Positions 5,364 through 36,971 of a DNA stretch of 64,000 bases are shown here, piece by piece. Source of the DNA: Centroberyx gerrardi (lineage: Eukaryota; Chordata; Actinopteri; Beryciformes; Berycidae); NCBI RefSeq assembly GCF_048128805.1, contig NC_136012.1, positions 11,841,725-11,905,724 of the forward strand. Reading direction: 5' to 3'. How positions within the stretch are numbered: the stretch's first letter is position 1; the number at the start of each line of letters is the position of its first letter. The notes below the pieces were generated by a model that made no database searches, had not been told where the DNA came from, and saw nothing but the letters and a program-made list of their open reading frames with translations. The translations under genes and the position numbers were made by a program.

Positions 5364-8300
5364 ATGGCGACGTCCCTAGGAGCTAACACCTACAATAGAC
5401 AGAACTGGGAAGACGCGGTACGTTTTAATGAACATCAAAGTTATTACATATGGCAGTGAGGGACGACTAAAACCTGGCGATTTTCAATTACACGCCACAA
5501 AATCGATATTGTTAGAAAATATGGTTCAGCAAGCAACTGATCGATTTGCTTTGTACCTAGCTAACGTGACGTTAGCTAGCGGAAGCGTGGTTGCTACCTT
5601 TACAATGTCTATGTAAATTACCGTTAACTAGCTATAAACAGTAACTTATCTAACATTCAAGCTTCTTTTGGTCTCAATGGAACTGGGGAAGAATATATTT
5701 GCTTAGGTTTCCAACAAACTATCCTAGCTAACCCAACCATTTATTGTTTGACCTAAGCTAACGTTAGCACTAGCTAACTAACGTTATTTAAACTAGATTA
5801 ACATTAATTAACAGCTTGTGATTTGTGAAAGCTGCCAGTTACTCACATCATTGTCTTGCGACAAGTTGGTAGTATTAGCTTGTACGACGTTTACTATCGA
5901 AAAATTCATATAAAAGGTAACTAAGTTTTGGTTAGCATGCATAGCAAATGAATAAGCCCGCTTGCCAGATAGGTCACACCTTAAATATAGCTTTTAATTT
6001 CTTCTGTTGAAGTGCCTGCGGGTCATTCTCTGCGTTGTAAACAGCTCCCAGCTCTGCACACAGTCAATTGTTTATTACCTCAGCTGTGGTTGCTGCAAAC
6101 ACTTCAAAGCTCAGGGGACTGACAAACTAGGCTAATCCAATGATGCATAATTTTAGCTAAAGTTAAGGCATCTGGTATGTTTGCCATGTGGTTTTTATTC
6201 TCCATAAAATACCTGAGCAGCACTTTGGAGGGCTATGGCTCCACTAGTCTACCATAAAAGGCCATGAATCAAGTTATTCTCTTGAGCCATGAGACAAGAG
6301 GGTCTTTGGTCAATGTTGGTTTTATAGAGACACTTGAGTGTAAACTTTGCAACCCTAGACAGGCTATGCAGTCTAAGTTTGTGCCGTAAGAGCTGCTTAT
6401 ATTTAGTTTGCTGTGATGGTGATGAGGTAGGTGGAATGGAAGAAGGCAAGGTCTCTTTCAGCAACTAACACTTGGACTGAAACTGCATCTTCCAACAGAT
6501 GGCAAAGTTGGAGCTAGTAAGCCTCATAACACTCCCTGTATTCACACTTGTAATTTGGCCAGGGTGCCAACAATAAAATGTGAAACAGAGAATGTAGGCT
6601 AGGAGCATGGCTTCAGAGAAGTCACAGCACAGGATGAGGAATTGATATGGTGTTTGTTTTTTTAACAAAATTAGCCTTTTCCCTTTCCTCTCAGGACTTC
6701 CCAATTCTGTGTCAGACATGTTTGGGAGAAAACCCTTACATCCGTATGGTGAGTGAGCATTAACTTCACTTAAATTCATATCTAAATTCAACACAAATTA
6801 TCCTTTTGGTAAGACACAAGTGGATGTGTGGGTTTAAATTTGTTCATGCTTTCTGTCACAGACCAAGGAGAAGTACGGGAAAGAATGCAAGGTATGTTTT
6901 GCTCTAATACTTAATGCACCACATATCATAACTTAGCTTGAACACACTAAGGCATGTTACAGAAGTAAGGATATTGATCTGTAATTCTGTGGTTCTTGTC
7001 TCATTAGATCTGTGCCCGACCCTTCACCGTGTTCCGCTGGTGTCCAGGGACACGCATGCGTTTCAAGAAGACAGAAGTCTGTCAGACCTGCAGTAAGATG
7101 AAGAATGTCTGTCAGACATGCCTGCTTGACCTGGAGTATGGTGAGTCTTTCTGACCGTTGCATCACTCTCTCTTCTCCATCTGTCTCTACATGTTTTCTG
7201 GCCTACTGTAACAGATAGATTAGTTGAACCCCTTGTCACCCTTGTGTTTGACAGGTTTGCCTATCCAGGTCCGAGACACCGGACTGGCTATCAAAGATGA
7301 TGTTCCGAAGTCAGATGTAAACAAAGAGTACTACACACAGAACATGGAGAGAGAGGTATGTTTGCAGGTTCTGTTAACACATAACTGCTGCTTTTTTTTG
7401 TTTTTCATACAACCACAACAGAGAAGACTAATTGATATTCCTAGCTCTCATCGATCCCTCATGCCAACTTGCACCCCTGTGTCCTCAGATAGCCAATTCT
7501 GATGGGACACGGCCGGTGGGCCTGCTGGGTAAGGCCCCTAGCTCTAGTGACATGTTGCTGAAACTGGCCCGAACCACGCCATACTACAAGAGGAACCGGC
7601 CACACATCTGCTCCTTCTGGGTGAAGGGAGAGTGTAAGAGAGGCGAGGAGTGCCCCTACAGGTGAGTGGCACGTCACATAAGAGCCGACAGTTGCAGTGT
7701 CTCAGGGGTCAAACTTGGTGGTGCTGTGGTGCCAGTAATGTACATACAGTTTGTACCTAGTGGCTGTTGGATATTGATCTTTTTTGTTTTCATTTGTCTG
7801 TCTTTTACATTTCCCTCCCCAGTAACCACTACCATAGACAGAACTAAAACCTGTTCGATTTTACAGTAAATTCCCCTGATGTGTTACAATTTTTATATTG
7901 TGAATATAATTTTCTCATTCTGGTTCTCTTTTTCACACAGGCACGAGAAGCCCACAGATCCAGATGACCCCCTAGCTGACCAGAACATAAAGGACCGTTA
8001 CTACGGTATCAACGACCCAGTAGCTGACAAGCTGCTGAAGCGGGCCTCAACCATGCCCCGTCTGGACCCACCAGATGACAAGTCCATCACCACCCTCTAC
8101 ATAGGGGGTCTGGGCGATACCGTCACAGATGCAGATCTCAAGTAGGGATTTCTATTTTATCATGAGGAGTTCTTTTACAACTTGCTTTGGCCATTTAGAT
8201 TAGCTTTTACTCTATTTTGTAACAATCATAGTTTTTCATTCTCATAAAAGGAATATTGTTCAAGGTGTTGGGACTTGGATTCTAAAGTTTTGGGGCCCTT

Positions 8301-17481: not shown

Positions 17482-17866
17482 ATGTACGGGCTGCTGTGTG
17501 AGAGCCTTCACGACTTCATCAAGGAGTCCTACGGAGATGACGTGTGGAAGCTAGTCAGAGAGAGAGCCGATGTCAGACTGCACTCTTTTGTCACCCATCA
17601 GGTATAGTGTCACTGCTCCTGTAGTAAACAGGGGGCATATTTTCACTATACACCAATATGTGTCTTACTGCAATGTTAGTATACACTTTGAGAATATGTA
17701 TGCATGGAATAGTAAAAACATAATTTGTGAGGGTCTATGGGTGTGTATGCATGGAGGGAGGGGAGGGTTGGGCATGTCAACCTGTCTGTCAGCCTATTTA
17801 TCTGTCAGTCTGCCTGCTTGTGTCTGAAGCTCCATGGTTCCAAAGGGGAAAATGTGTGTGTGCATA

Positions 17867-17901
<35 letters not shown>

Positions 17902-19143
17902 GTGTACAGTGAGAGTGTGATTCCCCGCATTGCAAAGGCAGCCAGTGGAGTGACAGGTACGCCCTACAATGAGCTGATGAACTCCTGGGGTGTCTATTTC
18001 CTGGGCTTCGTGGGGAAGTATGGCTATGACAGGATCCTCAAGGTGAGAAAAGCACCCAGACTCCAAACTGTCAAAACTGCACTGTGGTAGATATGTGAGA
18101 AAATTATTAAATACACAGTGACCTCGGTGTCCTCCGTGCTGCGAGTTTGCTAGTAAAATGTGATTTCTTTTTACATGTAATTGCATTTGCTTTTCCTATT
18201 GTTGTTTGTTGACATTTGCAAACACAATCCATTGATCCGGTCTAAAGCGATTACTGTGAGCGTTATTGTTCTGAATAGTGGGCTTTGCTCTTTACGTCTC
18301 TGTGCTCCTCAGACAAAGACTGCTGAAATATTTAACTCAAGTAGAAGTGCTGCGGTTACATTTTATTATAGTCAGTCTAGAAAATAAGAGCAACTCACAA
18401 AAAAGTACACATGCACTTAGTAACCTTCAAGCAAAAACATCATTATGATTTTATGCATCTTCCAAAATTGGCCCTCTAAAAATCAATGGACTACCTGTTT
18501 GGAATGGTCCATGCAAACATTGTAGTGTTGTACATTATCAACATTACAATGTCTTTCTAGCTCATAAAACTATAGTATCTGTTATGGAAGATAATGTCAA
18601 GAACAACTGTTTTACTGCACTTAATACTAACTTTAAAGAATATTAAAGTAGCACTATTTTAAAGAGCTACTCAAGCAAAGTAACTAGAGTCATAACCTGT
18701 TATGTTCCACCTCTGCCTCCAGGTGTTGGGTCGTCATGTGCGTGACTTTGTCAACGGGCTAGACAACCTGCATGAGTACCTTCGCTTCAGCTACCCCAAG
18801 GTCCAGCCCCCAACCTTCTTCTGCCAGGAGGAGTCGGCCACTGGAGTCACCCTCCACTACAGGTCTGGAAGAGGGGAGGGTGGAGGGAGGGGGGGGGGGC
18901 TGCTTATAATATCAGACTAACAGAAAAGTAGAAGAATAGCTGCGGCATTTATCACCTTGGAGACGTTACTAGATGTGCTCCTCTGTGCCCTGCAGGAGTA
19001 AACGTAAGGGATACCTGCACTATGCCATGGGTCAGCTGAGGCAGATGGGGAAGCAGTTCTACGACACAGACATCCATGTAGAGGTGCTGTCTGAGCAGCT
19101 GGTGGGAGACTACTCCCATGTCACCATGCGGTACGGTGGCAGC

Positions 19144-19229
<86 letters not shown>

Positions 19230-22200
19230 CATGATGAGATTTCATATTAATAAAATAAAATGAGAGGAAAATGTTGTTTCCTCTCACTTGCCATGACAAT
19301 TTAATTGCCTCCAGAAGATAATAACATGCTTTTAAATTTTATCTACACAGGCTGAACTTTGACAACTCAGCCTACCGCTACATCATGAAGGAGGATGAGG
19401 AAGAGCAGGAGATCCTGCCCATCACCTCAGACTTCTTCTTTGAGGTCTTCCCCTTCAACGTTGTCTTCAGACAGGTAATGGTTGTGCATGACATTCCCAA
19501 ACTCACCAAAGGCAGTTAATGAATAAAGTCTTTTTTTTTTTTTTTTTTTACAGAGTGATTCTTTGTTTGATTCTCTAGGACATGGTGGTGCACAACGTAG
19601 GTTCAGGCCTGGCTACAGTCTTCCCTGACCTGGATGGGAAGAAGATCAATGATGCCTTCCTATTGGCTCGCCCCCTAGTGGAGTTCACCTGGAACATGGT
19701 GAGACTTTTCCTTTAAATGTCTCTATTCCGTATATAGGAATAATATTACTGGATATTACCAGCCTTCCTGAAACTACATCTCATTCTACATAAAGAACAA
19801 TGATATCTTAATAGACCAGCAGCACCGATGGGTGCTGAGAATAGCCCCAGCTCATGTTCTAGTGCATACAGTGTGTGACCGTGTGAATCCGTACGCAGAT
19901 TATCTCCCACCCCAACAACCTGTTTGAGATCATGTCCAAGGAGCCTGTGAAGAGAGAGAGGAACCTCCACAACCGAGTCCAGAGTAAGAGTGGGAGCCAT
20001 TTAAACACTCACAGGGGTGTGTGTCTGGTGGACCAGGAGTCACTGGGTTGGGTCAAATCCATTTTACTCCAGTCAGTTCCAAAACACACATCCAATTTCA
20101 GTTTCATTAAAAAGAAAAAAAAAAAAAAAAGGTTCCTCAACTTGTATGAAAAATTGAGCATCAACATCTAACTTTGAGAATATTAGCTGAATTTGAAAAA
20201 TTTCGTTTTGGATTTCTTGTAGTTATTCGACTTGAATCGACTGATTTCTCGACTCAACTTGAATTGACTGAACTGAATGGAAGTGATCCCAGCCCTGGTA
20301 GTCATGGGGGGGATTAATATGAATGTTAGTGGTTCTGATATTTGACCCTCTTTACCACAGATTCTGACTACGAGAATGCCAACCGCTCTGCTGACGTAGA
20401 TGTGGAACTCATGGCTTTCCAGTCCATCATTGGAGACGATTACAAAGGTAATTGAAAAACACATAGACCTATACCAAGACCTGAGTACAGAGACACTGAA
20501 CTAGTCAGACTAACACTGACAACATGAAAACTACTAAAGATACATTAAAAACTACTAAAGAAACTCATTTATGTAATCTGTTGAACTACTAAACACATTA
20601 AGATGACATTGGAAACACAGGGGAAATAATCATCTACTGTACAATGTTAAAATCCTACCTATTTTAGGTACAATAACAGTAGATATAGATAGATTGATAT
20701 AGATAGGTAGATATAAATGCTTTATATGTTTTTTCTTGGTATTTGATGGCTGCGCCCCTCTTTCAGATGGTAATAGTGCTAATGCTATGGAGAGCTGGGG
20801 CGATGGCAGCCGCTGTCTGAAACTAAAGGGACAGATGAGATACATGCCGGAGTGGGAGTCCATCATCTTCCTGGGAACCCCTGTGTAAGGCCCACACACA
20901 CACACATGAACACACACATTTTATTAAAACCGAATACTGCAGTTTAAAAGTAAAACATTCTGAAAAGCAGCCAGAGCTAAACTGAAATACAAGGCTGGAA
21001 ATAGAAGTCTGGGCAGTGAATCAAATCAGGGGCCCATTCTAACGGCACTTACCATGCATGAAATGAGCTGCTAATTAGCTTGTAATCAGACAGTGCAGCT
21101 CTTGTAAGCCTAATGGGAGCCTATTTGCAACTGAGAGTGTTTTCCGCAGAGTACATTACAAAAACATCTCCCTCCTCTTCCAAAACATTTTGTTTCGCAA
21201 ATAAATGCCCTTATGTCTGTATTGACGCAACTGCTGAAATGTTAAATGTTGTATCTCACTACTTGCATCGTTCATATACTGTGGTAAAATCAAAGAATAG
21301 TTTATTCCTTAATTACTGTCTTCTGTCTTTTCATGTGTCTGTCTTGTCAAAGTTTGAATGCTTTCTCTCTCCTCTGTCTCTGTGTGTGTGTGTGTGTGTG
21401 CAGGATGGAGAGTCTGAGTGCCATGTTTAAGACAGGCTTGTACATCAATGACCTGAGTATGCACGACTCCAGCAGAGACCTGGTGCTGGCAGGCACGCAG
21501 CAGTCAGAGGAGCTGAAGAGAGCTCTCATACAGGTACGCATGTGTGCAGCTGCATGTCATCTGCATGTAGATCAGCTCGCTTGTCACTCTGCATTACGCA
21601 AAGTTCCCCCAGAAGCACATAACACCTACAGCTTGTGGACTTTAGGTGAAGGAAATTCTAGACACACAAACCACCTCTTCTTCTATCTATTATTGTGAGT
21701 GCAGGAGCAGAAGAAGTCCAGTAAGCTGGAGGAGAGCATGAAGATGTTGGACTATGAGATGAAGAAGACTGATGACCTTCTGTACAGGATGATTCCCAAG
21801 CCGGTGGCCAAGAGGCTGCGCAAAGGAGAGCCTGCTGTGAATACCTGCGAGGTCAGGACTGGAGACTGGAGTATGAGAGAGTGTGTGTGGCCCTTTATGT
21901 CACTGTACAAGAATCAAAAGTAGAGCAACAACCCGTGCACCGTCTATCTCGGGCAAAAAGGCCTCAATGAATCCTTCTGTGTGCTGAAATAGATGCAAAA
22001 TCCATCTCTTAATGAGACACACTGTAGGCGCCAAAAACAAACAAAAAACTCATTTGCTGCTTTTTAACTCACATTTGTGTACCCAAGCATTTTTTTTTGC
22101 ATCTATCTCAGCATTATAGCTTTTTTGCCCAATTTGGATGTTGTGCAGGTTGCTCTACTTTTGATTCTTGCATGTTGAATTCCTCAACCCCCGCACCCAA

Positions 22201-24957
22201 GGAAACCCTCTGAATTCTTACTACTACTATAGGTGCAGTATCAAAGTCTTTTTGCTCCTGCCCTATATGACGGAGTCTAGTGATAGTGACATCCTGATGG
22301 TGAATAACAGTATAGACACTACAGTGCAAACCTGTCTCCCTTCATCATCTCTCTTATCACTTGTCTCCCTGCCCCCCCTATCCAGGTCTTCCCCGATGTG
22401 ACCATTCTCTTCAGCGACGTGGTGGGATTCACCCGCATTTGCAGCCACATCACTCCCATGCAGGTGGTGTCCATGCTCAACACCATGTACACTCTCTTTG
22501 ACACGCTCAGCGAGAAGCACCGCGTCTTCAAGGTTTGTGTGGACGCTGTTCCCTCTGCGTAAAATCCATTTTCCATAAGTGCTGCAGAGTTAAGTGCTGC
22601 GGTCCCTGTCCCTTTCCAGGTTGAGACCATTGGAGATGCCTACATGGTGGTGGCCGGGGCTCCGGAGAAGACCAAGTACCACGCCCATAACATCTGTGAC
22701 ATGGCGCTGGACATGGTCCGCTCCATAGACCACCTCAAAGACCCCTCCAACGGCAACAACATACAGATTCGTGTTGGTGAGTAGGGAGCATGTAGGCCTG
22801 TGTTATATACATGATGTGGGTGTTTGACTGAACGGACCGACCTTTGGCCTGGCTGCAGGGATCCACTCTGGGATGGTGGTCGCAGGTGTGGTGGGTCATA
22901 AGATGCCGCGGTACGGTCTCCACGGTGACACGGTCCACACTGCATCTGCCATGGAGAGCAACGGCAAGGTACGGAGAGAGAGAATGATGACAACTAAGAG
23001 TGAGAAAGAAAACAGGACCGACGAGCGAAGGAGAAGCTAAATCAACATGACTGAAGTGATTGAAGTGATGCATCAGTTTTCTGACTGTGATTTTGCTGTG
23101 ATCGATCACTCTCTGTCCCAATCAGGAGATGCACATCCAGCTCAGCAGCGCCACCTATGAGCACCTGAAAGGAAGTCACTTTATTTTCGAAAGGAGGGGC
23201 ACCATCACCATCAAGGTCAGGGGTCAACAAATAGCTGTCACATCATTAGCACAGTTGCTATAGCAACGACTGATTAATCATCATTTGCGGGTCTGGAACA
23301 GATGTTAGCGGCACACCATGCATGACCTACCTGAGACCCAATGCTACGGCTGTAATTGATGGTGTTATTTTCAGTTAGAGTAACATTTGTGTTTGCCAAT
23401 TGAAACATTCTTTCAGCAATCAGATGTTATTTGTTCTCCCCAGATAAAAATTGGAATAACAAAAAAATAACACAGAGAAAGCCAACTTTTTGATATAAAC
23501 ATTTCTGAATCTTTAAAAGACTGCAACCGTGTTTTGGCTCTGGGGAGCCAGCACACTTAGTATTCAGGGCTGGTAATTGCATTTTGTCGGTTGATTTGCC
23601 AGTCTACATTATGAATGGGTCTGACTTTGAGTCTGTAGATTCAATGATAGTGCCCGCGTCTCCTAAAGGTCTCTGAGGCAGCTGATTACAGGTGCTAATC
23701 TTAAGAGAGCAGGAGTGACTCACCTTTTCATCAAGGGGTTTTTGATTGTCGAAGCCCTGCCAGCTGCCATTTTACTCTCCTCCATACTAGAAATTGTGCC
23801 TGTGAGCATGTGTTCGGGTATATGCGAGTGTGCATATGTGAATGTGTTATGTATATTTATCAGGGCTATCATATTTCAAAATCCCTCTTTTGATTTTCTC
23901 TGTGCATTCCACTCTCCTTTTTTCTCACTGCAATTCTCCACCTCCGTCTGTTAGGGGAATGTGGAGATTGAGACGTACTGGCTGAAGGGGAAGAGGGACA
24001 AGGATGGGAATGCTCAGGCAGCGTGTCCCCAGTTTGAGACCCAGACCATCAGCAAGACCATCAGCAAGGCCACCATCTTGGTCCCCGAGACCACAGGGGA
24101 TGAGGAGGGACTGGTAAGGCTGCAGCCAAGACCTCTTTGGGTACTTCAAAACTGCTTCAAACACCATCAACCTGTGCAATGTCAAGTATTAGTGAAGTAG
24201 TGAACAGGTATCAGGTGATGCCAATCAATCATGTGATTAATGAGATAATCCCTGAGAAGAAACTCAACCATTAAAATAATCATTTTAGTGCATATATGTG
24301 CTTTCCTGGCTCCCCCACATTCTCCATCTCTACCCATCATCCTCTCTGATTTCCCTCACGCTGCCTCTGTCCTGCCCCCAGGCTTTCCCACTGGTAGCAG
24401 GGGGGGACGAGGACGACGTCAAGTCTATTCGCTCCCATCGTATCAAGATGGAGATCTCAGGCCATTCTCTGGAGGAGTCGATGGAGGAGTGCCGGGTGGA
24501 GGAGATGTCTGTTCACAAGGTGAGAGGGAGGGAGCCTCTGCAGAGATGTAAGGTTGACAAAACTAGTGGCAAAATTGGCTGATTATGCTCCCTTAAAGTT
24601 CAAACACCTCATCTAATTACACAGATTTAATTACACCCCCCATTTCTTGTCTTCATCCCATCACTATCCCTTTTCTAGTTCCCTCTTTGCTTCCCTTCCT
24701 GTGTTATTTTTAGCCGCCAGTGTTGTGCGCCTGCCATTTTTTATTAATGTGGATGCTTCATTAAAAAACACGACAAGTAAAATGAGCTGCTCCTTCCCCA
24801 GTCCCACTACAAGGATGCTCTGCAGGACAGCCTGCAGGACCCCCACCTGGAGCTGGACTCTCCGGAGTTTGACGGCAGGGACTCCATCATGGAGTCGCCC
24901 GACGGCTCCAGTGACTCCCACTGTTCTGAGAAGAGCGCCATGTGCTCCTTGTCATGA
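17482..24957 (+). CDS. gucy1b2: soluble guanylate cyclase beta-2-type subunit with CaaX box
   Basis: Makes cyclic GMP from GTP under control of a haem-bound gas. Eighteen exons join in phase: 17482-17601, 17902-18042, 18723-18862, 18996-19130, 19351-19474, 19579-19698, 19899-19983, 20361-20447, 20767-20884, 21404-21533, 21705-21851, 22386-22532, 22620-22776, 22859-22968, 23126-23215, 23955-24113, 24382-24519, 24802-24957; 767 residues. Domains: H-NOX haem domain (1-180) with proximal His104 and the haem-propionate motif Tyr133/Ser135/Arg137; H-NOXA/PAS (about 210-335); signalling helix (about 385-440); cyclase domain (about 450-640); acidic tail ending in CSLS, a CaaX box as in rat beta-2. 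The distal haem pocket has Tyr143 where beta-1 has Ile145. The cyclase domain keeps Asp460, Glu500 and Asp504 but has Gly570, His577 and Ala581 in place of the beta-1 Cys541, Asn548 and Arg552. Human GUCY1B2 is a pseudogene; this copy looks intact. Middle-domain wording also recalls insect atypical Gyc-88E/89D cyclases. Confidence 0.92.
19142..19228. repeat. (AC)n microsatellite just after a gucy1b2 donor
   Basis: About 85 bp of AC dinucleotide with one interruption (ACCTAC). It begins 11 bases after the donor of gucy1b2 exon 4 at 19131. Confidence 0.95.
21908..22170. repeat. 263-bp inverted repeat (MITE-like) in gucy1b2 intron 11
   Basis: The left end CAAGAATCAAAAGTAGAGC (21908 onward) is matched perfectly, in reverse complement, by the right end finishing at 22170; identity continues to 22 bp. 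Further in, GGGCAAAAAG (left) pairs with the reverse complement GGGCAAAAAAG (right), and GAGATAGATGCAAAA pairs with GAAATAGATGCAAAA. The arms are therefore about 80 bp with small loops and gaps. There is no coding capacity. It is either a hairpin-type non-autonomous DNA transposon or a fold-back element. Confidence 0.75.
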
Positions 24958-26372: not shown

Positions 26373-26714
26373 TCAGACCACGTTCCCCACTGACTGGCCA
26401 TCAGAAGAACTGCACCTAAAGGTGGCATCCTCGCGTTCCAGGCTGCACCCATGGGCCATGCGTGAGTCTTTTGGGGACGGATCGATGGAGCAACGGAAAC
26501 AGAAGGCGTAGAAGAAGGCCACGAGCAGCAGGAAGCAGACCACGCAGAAGATGATGACGATCAGCACCGTGTGCACTTGCATATGCTCCTCTTCCCATGG
26601 GAGGAGGGTGGTGGTGGTCAGGAGGCCCGAGGTCGCCCTAGGGGTGACACTGGGGTCGGGAGTCACTGCGGGTGACTGTGGGTTCATGGAGGCCAGGGAG
26701 GGGACGTCCGGCAT
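26373..26714 (-). CDS. unnamed small single-pass membrane protein (113 aa)
   Basis: A single coding exon gives 113 residues. Residues 1-45 are Pro/Ser/Thr-rich and carry no signal peptide. A strong hydrophobic segment (VLIVIIFCVVCFLLLVAFF) spans about 50-71, and a Cys-containing tail follows (CFRCSID, then CSLEREDATFRCSSSDGQS). The layout suggests an extracellular N-terminus and a cytosolic C-terminus. The ATG at 26714 is preceded in frame by a stop near 26.77 kb. An acceptor (CTTCCTCCCTTAAG, exon edge 26776) joins well to a donor at 27174, so this is a spliced gene with a non-coding first exon. A minus-strand AATAAA is at 26056-26061. I do not recognise the family; it resembles the SMIM class only in architecture. 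Confidence 0.65.
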   Translation of the reverse strand: MPDVPSLASMNPQSPAVTPDPSVTPRATSGLLTTTTLLPWEEEHMQVHTVLIVIIFCVVCFLLLVAFFYAFCFRCSIDPSPKDSRMAHGCSLEREDATFRCSSSDGQSVGNVV

Positions 26715-27173
26715 GACGGCAGGATTTATGCCCTCTTCCAGTGACTTGTTGGGTTCTTTGTCAGCTCAGTTGCAGCCTTAAGGGAGGAAGACATCATTTG
26801 TAATTTGGAACAGTTAATTAATTAATTAAGTGAATTAATAGGATATTAGAGTAATATTAACATATATAATATTATTAATTCAAGTGGAGTTAAAAGCAAG
26901 ATATTAAGATATACAAATCAGCCTGCTGATAACAACAGGTGAAAAACGACAGTGTCAAACATAGTGACTTGTACCATGCTGTTATTATAACAATGATAAT
27001 CATAATATTATAATAAGTTATTATAATAAGCCGGTGGGCAGTGCTAAGCCTCGGTTACGAAGAAGTCCTGCCATTGTTCAGTTTGCTACATCACCTCCAT
27101 CTCTTTAAACGCAGCAGCAGCTTAACTTCCCTCCGAGCAGACGACCAAACACAGACATTTTCTTTGTTCTTAC

Positions 27174-35307: not shown

Positions 35308-36971
35308 AAAATGTCACACTTGATGATGTACATAAAGGTCCAATCCGTAATTCAAATATCACCACAGCACACTCGGTGCTGTTAATGTATGCATTCATTG
35401 AAAAATGTATTGCTTTCTTTAAAAGGGATACTGTAAGCCTACAGTATATCTTATGTTGCTATTACAACAGTAAAGAAGTATGTAAGGAAAAAAAACCTGC
35501 AGCGAGGGAAAGTGCATTATGTGAATTTTCTGTGGATGTGGCCGTTGATAAGAGTTATTCAGCCCAAACTGAGCTCTCACCATTCTCTTTTTTCAGCTTG
35601 CACTTCATGGCCACAGCCAGGACCAGGACCAGCACCACAGCTGAAACACCACAGATCACCAGCACCACCACGATGCTGTCTGAATGACAGAACAGACACA
35701 CAGACGGAGACAGACAGACAGTTGCAGAGGCAGAGAGACAGACAGACAGACAGACATGCACCAGAGACACAGATTGCTATTGAGGGTTATTGAGGTATTG
35801 TAGCATTTTATTATTAATAGCTAGAACGTCATGAAATCTTTCTGCTCATTCATTCTAATTCAGAAACTGTAAAATGCACTTTCCTCATGCCTGTAGCTTC
35901 TAATAAGATTAAAAGCCAATCTAAATGACAAAGACAACAGGTATCTGAAACTCTATAGAATAAGCAGAGAAATGTCTGGCTACCGTTTACAGTGACCTCG
36001 TGTGGCGAAGACGTGCAATTGCCACACGGGCTCCTGACACTGCAGCGATAGTGGCCCGCGTGATGTGTTAACACTTTGAGCGTCAGCTTGCTGGTATTCT
36101 GGCCTTCCAGGGTCTCCCCGTCCTTCTGCCACTCAAACTCCACAACCAATGGGAGCAGGTTATGGAAACATTCTATGGTGACGACATCGCCCTCCTGCAA
36201 GCTTTCTGAAGTGCTGCCGTTGAGAGACACCTGCAACTCTGATGGGTCGAGCAAATGTTTTAGGGATGGACGGATACTCCAACAGCATCAAGAAATCACA
36301 TAAGTGTGTCGCTTCATGTAGTTAATTGCACTGCCATTGATATTCATACAGTTGCAGCTTTCCTGTTTTGCACTTTTCTGGAATATCTGCACATATTAAT
36401 ACAGTATAGTTAATGTGGAGAGGAAGGAATACAATCATAGTCAGCATTTAAGTAGGATATACATAAATCATTCATTTTGAGGGGAGAATTCAGAGGAAAC
36501 TGGGTACTGACCATTGATGCACTTAGAATTATTCTTTGAGCAGAGCTGACAAAAATCTGTGGGGAGACAGAGAGACGGGAAGAAGAATACTCAGAGCTGT
36601 TTTCTTGTGTATCGTACCAAGCAATACACTAAGTGGCAGAGAATGTTCTGGCACATTAGCTGGGTACATTGTATTGAGTGATGAAGTCTATATATAGCCT
36701 TATAGAGAATAAACAGTGAGGGGTACCGGCTGATCTGTCCCCTGCCAGAGTTTCTCCTGTGACGTTACACCTCAGACACTCGGCAAAAACACAGGCAGAG
36801 CAAACCCCAGCTACCATGAAAGAGGAGAGAGTGAGTGGCAGACGTGTGGAGATGAACAAGCATAAATATTCAGAGAAAGAGAAAACAGGTCCGTAAAATT
36901 CAAAGGAGTGGTTGCTTACTTATGAGGAGATTACCAAGCAAAGGATATAGGAACATCTCCCTCACAGCCAT
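35190..36971 (-). CDS. unnamed type I membrane protein: Cys-rich stalk, one Ig domain, TM, basic tail
   Basis: Six minus-strand exons join in phase: 36920-36971, 36727-36810, 36512-36556, 35984-36238, 35581-35679 and 35190-35272, giving 205 residues. The signal peptide (MAVREMFLYPLLGNLLI and on) is cleaved about residue 25. A Cys-rich segment (ECLRCNV ... DFCQLCSKNNSKC) covers about 26-59. An Ig-like C2 domain covers 61-145, with IEC and YRCSV cysteines, a core Trp in FEWQKDG, and an extra Cys pair (SPCGNC). A transmembrane helix (VVVLVICGVSAVVLVLVLAV) covers about 147-169. The tail is short, basic and Gln-rich, with no ITAM, ITIM or other tyrosine motif. Five N-glycosylation sequons are present. 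A donor at 37284 suggests a non-coding first exon. The family is unknown to me; immune or adhesion function is inference only. Confidence 0.8.

Follow-up and report, generated by a model that had tools for sequence, protein, structure and literature searches.

An 88E-like soluble guanylate cyclase gene of the fish Centroberyx gerrardi with a distal haem-pocket tyrosine and altered substrate-side catalytic residues

The window analysed here, a stretch of 64 000 nucleotides of Centroberyx gerrardi DNA, contains a gene for a subunit of soluble guanylate cyclase (sGC). The gene has 18 coding exons (17482–24957, + strand) that splice to a protein of 767 amino acids with no internal stops, and all 17 introns are of the GT-AG type. 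Three Pfam domains, all far above the cut-off, follow one another in the single chain: HNOB (residues 2–164), HNOBA (202–438) and Guanylate_cyc (451–629). This is the layout of the atypical sGC. An NCBIfam scan of a 664-residue part of the protein gave two weak cyclase matches, far under the cut-off. The features discussed in the text, including related genes found on other contigs of the same genome, are as follows (basis in parentheses).

17482–24957, + strand: 88E-like soluble guanylate cyclase subunit gene, exons 1–18 (splicing, Pfam)
18010–18012, + strand: Val77; Cys in beta-1 and in both beta-2-type genes of the genome (alignment; codon counted)
18771–18773, + strand: His104, proximal haem ligand (aligned with the invariant H-NOX His; codon counted)
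18858–19005, + strand: YxSxR haem-propionate motif (Tyr133/Ser135/Arg137), interrupted by intron 3 at 18863–18995 (splicing)
19021–19023, + strand: Tyr143, distal haem-pocket column, corresponding to beta-1 Ile145 and Tt Tyr140 (splicing, alignments)
19033–19035, + strand: Gln147, corresponding to beta-1 Ile149 (splicing, PDB alignment)
19439–19441, + strand: Phe209; Cys in beta-1 and in both beta-2-type genes of the genome (alignment; codon counted)
22416–22418, + strand: Asp460, first metal ligand, kept (splicing, alignment)
22623–22637, + strand: span from Glu500 (base) to Asp504 (second metal ligand), each of them retained (alignment; codon counted)
22915–22917, + strand: Gly570, replacing the base-recognition Cys (alignment; codon counted)
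22936–22938, + strand: His577, replacing the ribose-orienting Asn (alignment; codon counted)
22948–22950, + strand: Ala581, replacing the transition-state Arg (alignment; codon counted)
C6:19433001–19453000: beta-2-type gene
C21:17013001–17043000: beta-2-type gene
C12:4532001–4552000: second 88E-like gene

Several other coding features surround the cyclase gene. Upstream of it lies a calsarcin/myozenin exon (PF05556; 13519–13791, − strand), which we take to be MYOZ3. A peptide encoded at 7870–8142 (+ strand), for which Pfam gave no match, is presumably RBM22-like. Two exons of an Arf-family GTPase (PF00025; 30285–30644 and 32781–33104, − strand) presumably belong to an ARL3-like gene. There is also an immunoglobulin-domain exon (Ig_2; 35853–36287, − strand) and an open frame of 130 residues (26376–26765, − strand) that includes a transmembrane-like segment and has Pfam matches below the cut-off only. 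Within the cyclase gene, a long CA repeat (19145–19227) is located about 15 bases past the donor site of the Tyr143-encoding exon 4; variation in the length of this repeat might affect splicing.

A preliminary description of this DNA named the gene gucy1b2 and proposed, on the basis of Tyr143, that its haem domain might bind oxygen. The residues it pointed to are present: the spliced translation has Tyr at position 143 (19021–19023) and the complete haem motif Tyr133/Ser135/Arg137. The proposed equivalence of Tyr143 and beta-1 Ile145 also holds, as the PDB alignment with human beta-1 (6jt0_B) is ungapped from YxSxR to the conserved Gly; the 18-residue stretch of the window protein faces human beta-1 LHYYSEREGLQDIVIGII without a gap. 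The same alignment places Gln147 on beta-1 Ile149, which supports the predicted polar Gln beside the Tyr. Tyr140 of the Thermoanaerobacter (Caldanaerobacter) Tt H-NOX shares the column of Tyr143 in a MAFFT alignment of seven sequences, with a preceding one-residue gap in Tt, at 21 per cent identity between the two proteins.

In the other three readable H-NOX genes of the genome (C3, C6 and C21), both the Tyr143 column and the Gln147 column are occupied by Ile. The solved H-NOX nearest by sequence is a cyanobacterial Nostoc protein with Met at the Tyr143 column, and Met is present in 80 of 80 cyanobacterial domains (the best 80 of 211 matches, a set biased towards the Nostoc query). Tyr143 is thus not a default residue, given Ile in the three genes of the genome and Met in the cyanobacterial set. 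Inheritance of Tyr143 from a cyanobacterial-type H-NOX was considered and rejected on the same 80 domains.

The partners of Tt Tyr140 are missing from the window protein: there is no Trp among its residues 1–21, where Trp9 is expected, and the place of Asn74 is taken by Phe73, by an ungapped count from the shared Gly. Both places were counted by hand, MAFFT having misplaced Tt in this region. The window protein has only the Tyr of the triad Trp9-Asn74-Tyr140. Full-length beta-1 with the I145Y change reportedly does not hold O2 stably; in a literature search for I145Y, the term was absent among the matches listed. Bacterial H-NOX proteins can share the residues nearest the ligand and still bind O2 with affinities about 1000-fold apart, as is reported for two of them (PMC7356049), so that the Tyr by itself does not set affinity. 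Judged from its residues, O2 binding by the window H-NOX is plausible, and Tyr143 makes it likely, not certain.

The name gucy1b2 was not confirmed. Searches of the 779-Mb genome with the H-NOX family gave at least eight exon matches on four contigs (that of the window, C16, and C3, C6 and C21), and searches with HNOBA gave at least 17 matches, adding two alpha-type genes (C3 and C6) and a gene on C12. The genes of C3, C6 and C21 were rebuilt with a purpose-written spliced aligner: the C3 gene is beta-1, and those of C6 and C21 are two separate beta-2-type genes, giving a genome total of at least two of this type. The zebrafish gucy1b2 primers of PMC4480006, translated by hand, correspond to WMESLN and NQLKEG. 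The peptide NQLKEG is exact in the C6 gene and reads NQLKDG in the C21 gene and KRLRKG in the window protein; WMESLN is near the WMSSLG / WMGSLG of the C6 and C21 genes, and the window protein has YMPEWES. The beta-2 label of the C6 and C21 genes is provisional and is based on this one exact match and some near ones. Since the genome's own beta-2-type genes match the zebrafish primers exactly or nearly and the window gene does not, the window gene is not gucy1b2, and the comparison that the preliminary description drew with mouse Gucy1b2 and its olfactory cells does not carry over.

The window gene shares domain order and the haem motif with vertebrate beta-2. Unlike it, the C6 and C21 genes have Ile at both haem-pocket columns, both Cys (also found in the C3 gene) at the positions of Val77 and Phe209 of the window protein, and the full catalytic set. 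The cyclase region of the window gene is 44 and 47 per cent identical to those of the two beta-2-type genes. A tree built from 11 sequences of the cyclase region, covering alpha, beta-1 and beta-2-type genes besides those of the window and C12, pairs the window gene with the C12 gene (support 100/99), apart from the other three types; the beta-2-type genes form the next group (93/91, not starred). The distal Ile, the two Cys and the beta-2 grouping that mark vertebrate beta-2 are all absent from the window gene.

Several characters of the window protein are those reported for the atypical sGC of invertebrates, namely Gyc-88E and Gyc-89Da,b of Drosophila, MsGC-beta3 of Manduca and GCY-31/33 of C. 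elegans, with which it shares the HNOB-HNOBA-cyclase layout. At the place of the Tyr, Drosophila Gyc-88E reads YYTMGQ and 89D reads KYLIGQ; 89D reportedly has no metal Asp. Mammals are not known to have an 88E-type gene. The two Cys associated with the NO response are presumably beta-1 Cys78 and Cys214. PMC1435932 reports Tyr at the distal place for the O2-regulated atypical (basal) clade, Ile at this place for all beta-1 and beta-2, and a gain of O2 binding when Tyr is put at beta-1 position 145; on the Tt scale it gives the clade Tyr the number 141, which differs by one from Tyr140. The same source describes beta-3 and nematode members as being without two Cys that matter for the response to NO. 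The window protein likewise has the distal Tyr reported for these proteins, and has Val77 and Phe209 at the positions of the two Cys, if these are Cys78 and Cys214 of beta-1. Since Tyr is reported for the atypical clade, it is expected in a clade member, and Tyr143 is probably an inherited mark of the clade.

The larval 88E/89D heterodimers of Drosophila are reported as O2 sensors activated by hypoxia (PMC9075734, PMC11344882), a table in PMC10248080 classes Gyc88E as an oxygen sensor insensitive to NO and, according to the title of Nighorn 1999, MsGC-beta3 is active without a second subunit. A 2006 survey lists the atypical branch from insects and nematodes only. A phrase search of the open-access literature gave, besides a diatom paper, a single fish match for 88E, a pikeperch brain study (PMC12673963) in which one gene bears the name soluble guanylate cyclase 88E-like and is given with transcript levels and database terms; the name alone may denote the window type or the C12 type.

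The cyclase domain has lost part of its catalytic site, a new observation that the preliminary description did not mention. With residue roles taken from the related CYG12 cyclase (PMC2576301), the base-recognition Cys, the ribose-orienting Asn and the transition-state Arg are replaced by Gly570, His577 and Ala581. There are four changed residues (570, 572, 577 and 581), all in one 110-base exon. Asp460 and Asp504, Glu500, Arg549 and the substrate-side Lys617 are retained. The Cys, Asn and Arg are all present in four of the four other genes compared (C12, beta-1 and both beta-2-type genes), and the two beta-2-type genes also have both metal Asp. The possibility that the window holds another version of exon 14, one in which the catalytic residues are canonical, was rejected: apart from exon 14 itself, no match within the window scored better than E 3. 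The full set needed for activity without a partner, as in the Gyc-88E / MsGC-beta3 type, is absent from the window protein, which is without the substrate-side Cys, Asn and Arg. Because these three residues are lost, a homodimer of the window protein should be catalytically inactive.

This pattern recalls sGC alpha-1, which is not known to bind haem and is an active half of the sGC heterodimer. The alpha-1 proteins of C. gerrardi, human and Manduca keep the metal Asp pair and the Cys and are without the Asn and Arg; lacking these two residues of the other side, alpha-1 works only as a heterodimer half. The window protein resembles alpha-1 in its metal Asp pair and missing Asn and Arg, and differs from it in that alpha-1 keeps the Cys and in that the haem ligands of the window protein are intact. 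To judge from these residues, the window subunit could be the metal-giving half of a heterodimer and the C12 product the other half.

The C12 paralogue is 68 per cent identical to the window gene in the cyclase region. From exon 10 to exon 15 the two genes agree in exon length (130, 147, 147, 157, 110 and 90), and window exons 5 and 6 correspond to a single exon in C12. Exons 2–4 of C12, which include the region of the Tyr column, were not found; the sequence from exon 1 to the first exon recovered after it includes a long stretch of N. The C12 protein has two peculiarities near the metal ligands: the Gly that precedes the second metal Asp is replaced by Arg (VETIRDAY), and a Lys is present three places past the first metal Asp (SDVVKF), a position with Gly in the window protein and Thr in the beta-2-type genes.

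We infer that the window gene encodes a fish sGC of the atypical type (88E / Manduca beta-3) that binds O2 and acts as the alpha-like, metal-side half of a heterodimer, and we give this reading a probability of about 60 per cent. Other readings accept the gene and question its function. The protein may belong to the atypical clade without sensing O2 in the cell, the O2 complex formed with a lone Tyr being too weak or too oxidisable, so that the haem would report NO, CO or redox state, or be only structural. The missing Trp9 and Asn74 partners (by hand count) and the roughly 1000-fold spread of affinities among proteins with the same closest residues (PMC7356049) are in its favour, but Drosophila 88E and 89D, which reportedly have the Tyr, are O2 sensors according to published descriptions (PMC1435932, PMC9075734), and the window protein is without the two Cys found in the beta-1 and beta-2-type genes; we consider this doubtful, though a serious alternative. 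It is also conceivable, but rather unlikely, that the protein is a catalytically dead pseudo-cyclase with no functional half-site, which would dimerise with an active subunit and damp it, or signal by contact. The joint loss of Cys, Asn and Arg, with no canonical second exon copy within the window, would be explained in this way. However, all three losses are on the substrate side while both metal Asp, Glu500, Arg549 and Lys617 of the substrate side remain, and alpha-1 of C. gerrardi, human and Manduca, an active half, misses the same Asn and Arg.

The two remaining explanations concern the gene itself. The concentration of the changes at 570, 572, 577 and 581 in one 110-base exon might reflect an assembly fault or a decaying pseudogene. 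The reading frame is nevertheless intact across 18 exons, and the end branch of the window gene (0.27) is close to that of the C12 paralogue (0.24), which argues against general decay; this explanation is very improbable. As for a true gucy1b2 with a fish-specific Ile-to-Tyr change, it would fit the identical domain order and the position of the beta-2-type genes as nearest group after C12 (93/91, not starred). We regard it as already refuted by the genome's own two beta-2-type genes, which have Ile at the two columns and retain the two Cys, to which the window gene is only 44–47 per cent identical and one of which (C6) contains one zebrafish primer exactly, neither primer fitting the window gene; we give it practically no weight.

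If the window protein is an O2-binding half of a heterodimer, it may function as follows. The H-NOX domain would hold its haem by His104 and the YxSxR motif, and Tyr143 would donate a hydrogen bond to haem-bound O2, with Gln147 perhaps helping. Through this bond the haem would be occupied by O2 in normoxia and emptied in hypoxia, when the departure of O2 would free the cyclase of the heterodimer. The cyclase domain of the window subunit would supply the metal-binding side of the active site, as alpha subunits do; having the metal side without the substrate side, it would need a partner that brings the Cys, Asn and Arg. The first candidate for this partner is the C12 paralogue, although it has unusual changes of its own beside both metal Asp; beta-1 or beta-2 would come next. 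If the response resembles that of Drosophila, a fall in O2 would raise cGMP.

In the mouse, the beta-2 subunit has been linked to low-O2 responses of olfactory cells (PMC12755159). As a vertebrate gene that resembles the oxygen cyclases of invertebrates and is not beta-2, the window gene is a concrete candidate for acute O2 sensing in the gill, nose and brain of fish. It also carries two warnings: 88E-like genes of fish should not be read as gucy1b2, and, with its substrate side missing, the subunit expressed alone is predicted to produce no cGMP, so that a negative result with the single protein would mislead. More tentatively, and with the odds against it, fish may retain an O2-sensing cyclase formed by two 88E-type paralogues, in which the active site has been split anew, the window subunit giving the metal side and the O2 pocket and the C12 subunit the substrate side. 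If this is true, the division of labour between alpha and beta subunits would have evolved a second time, within the oxygen-sensing branch of vertebrates.
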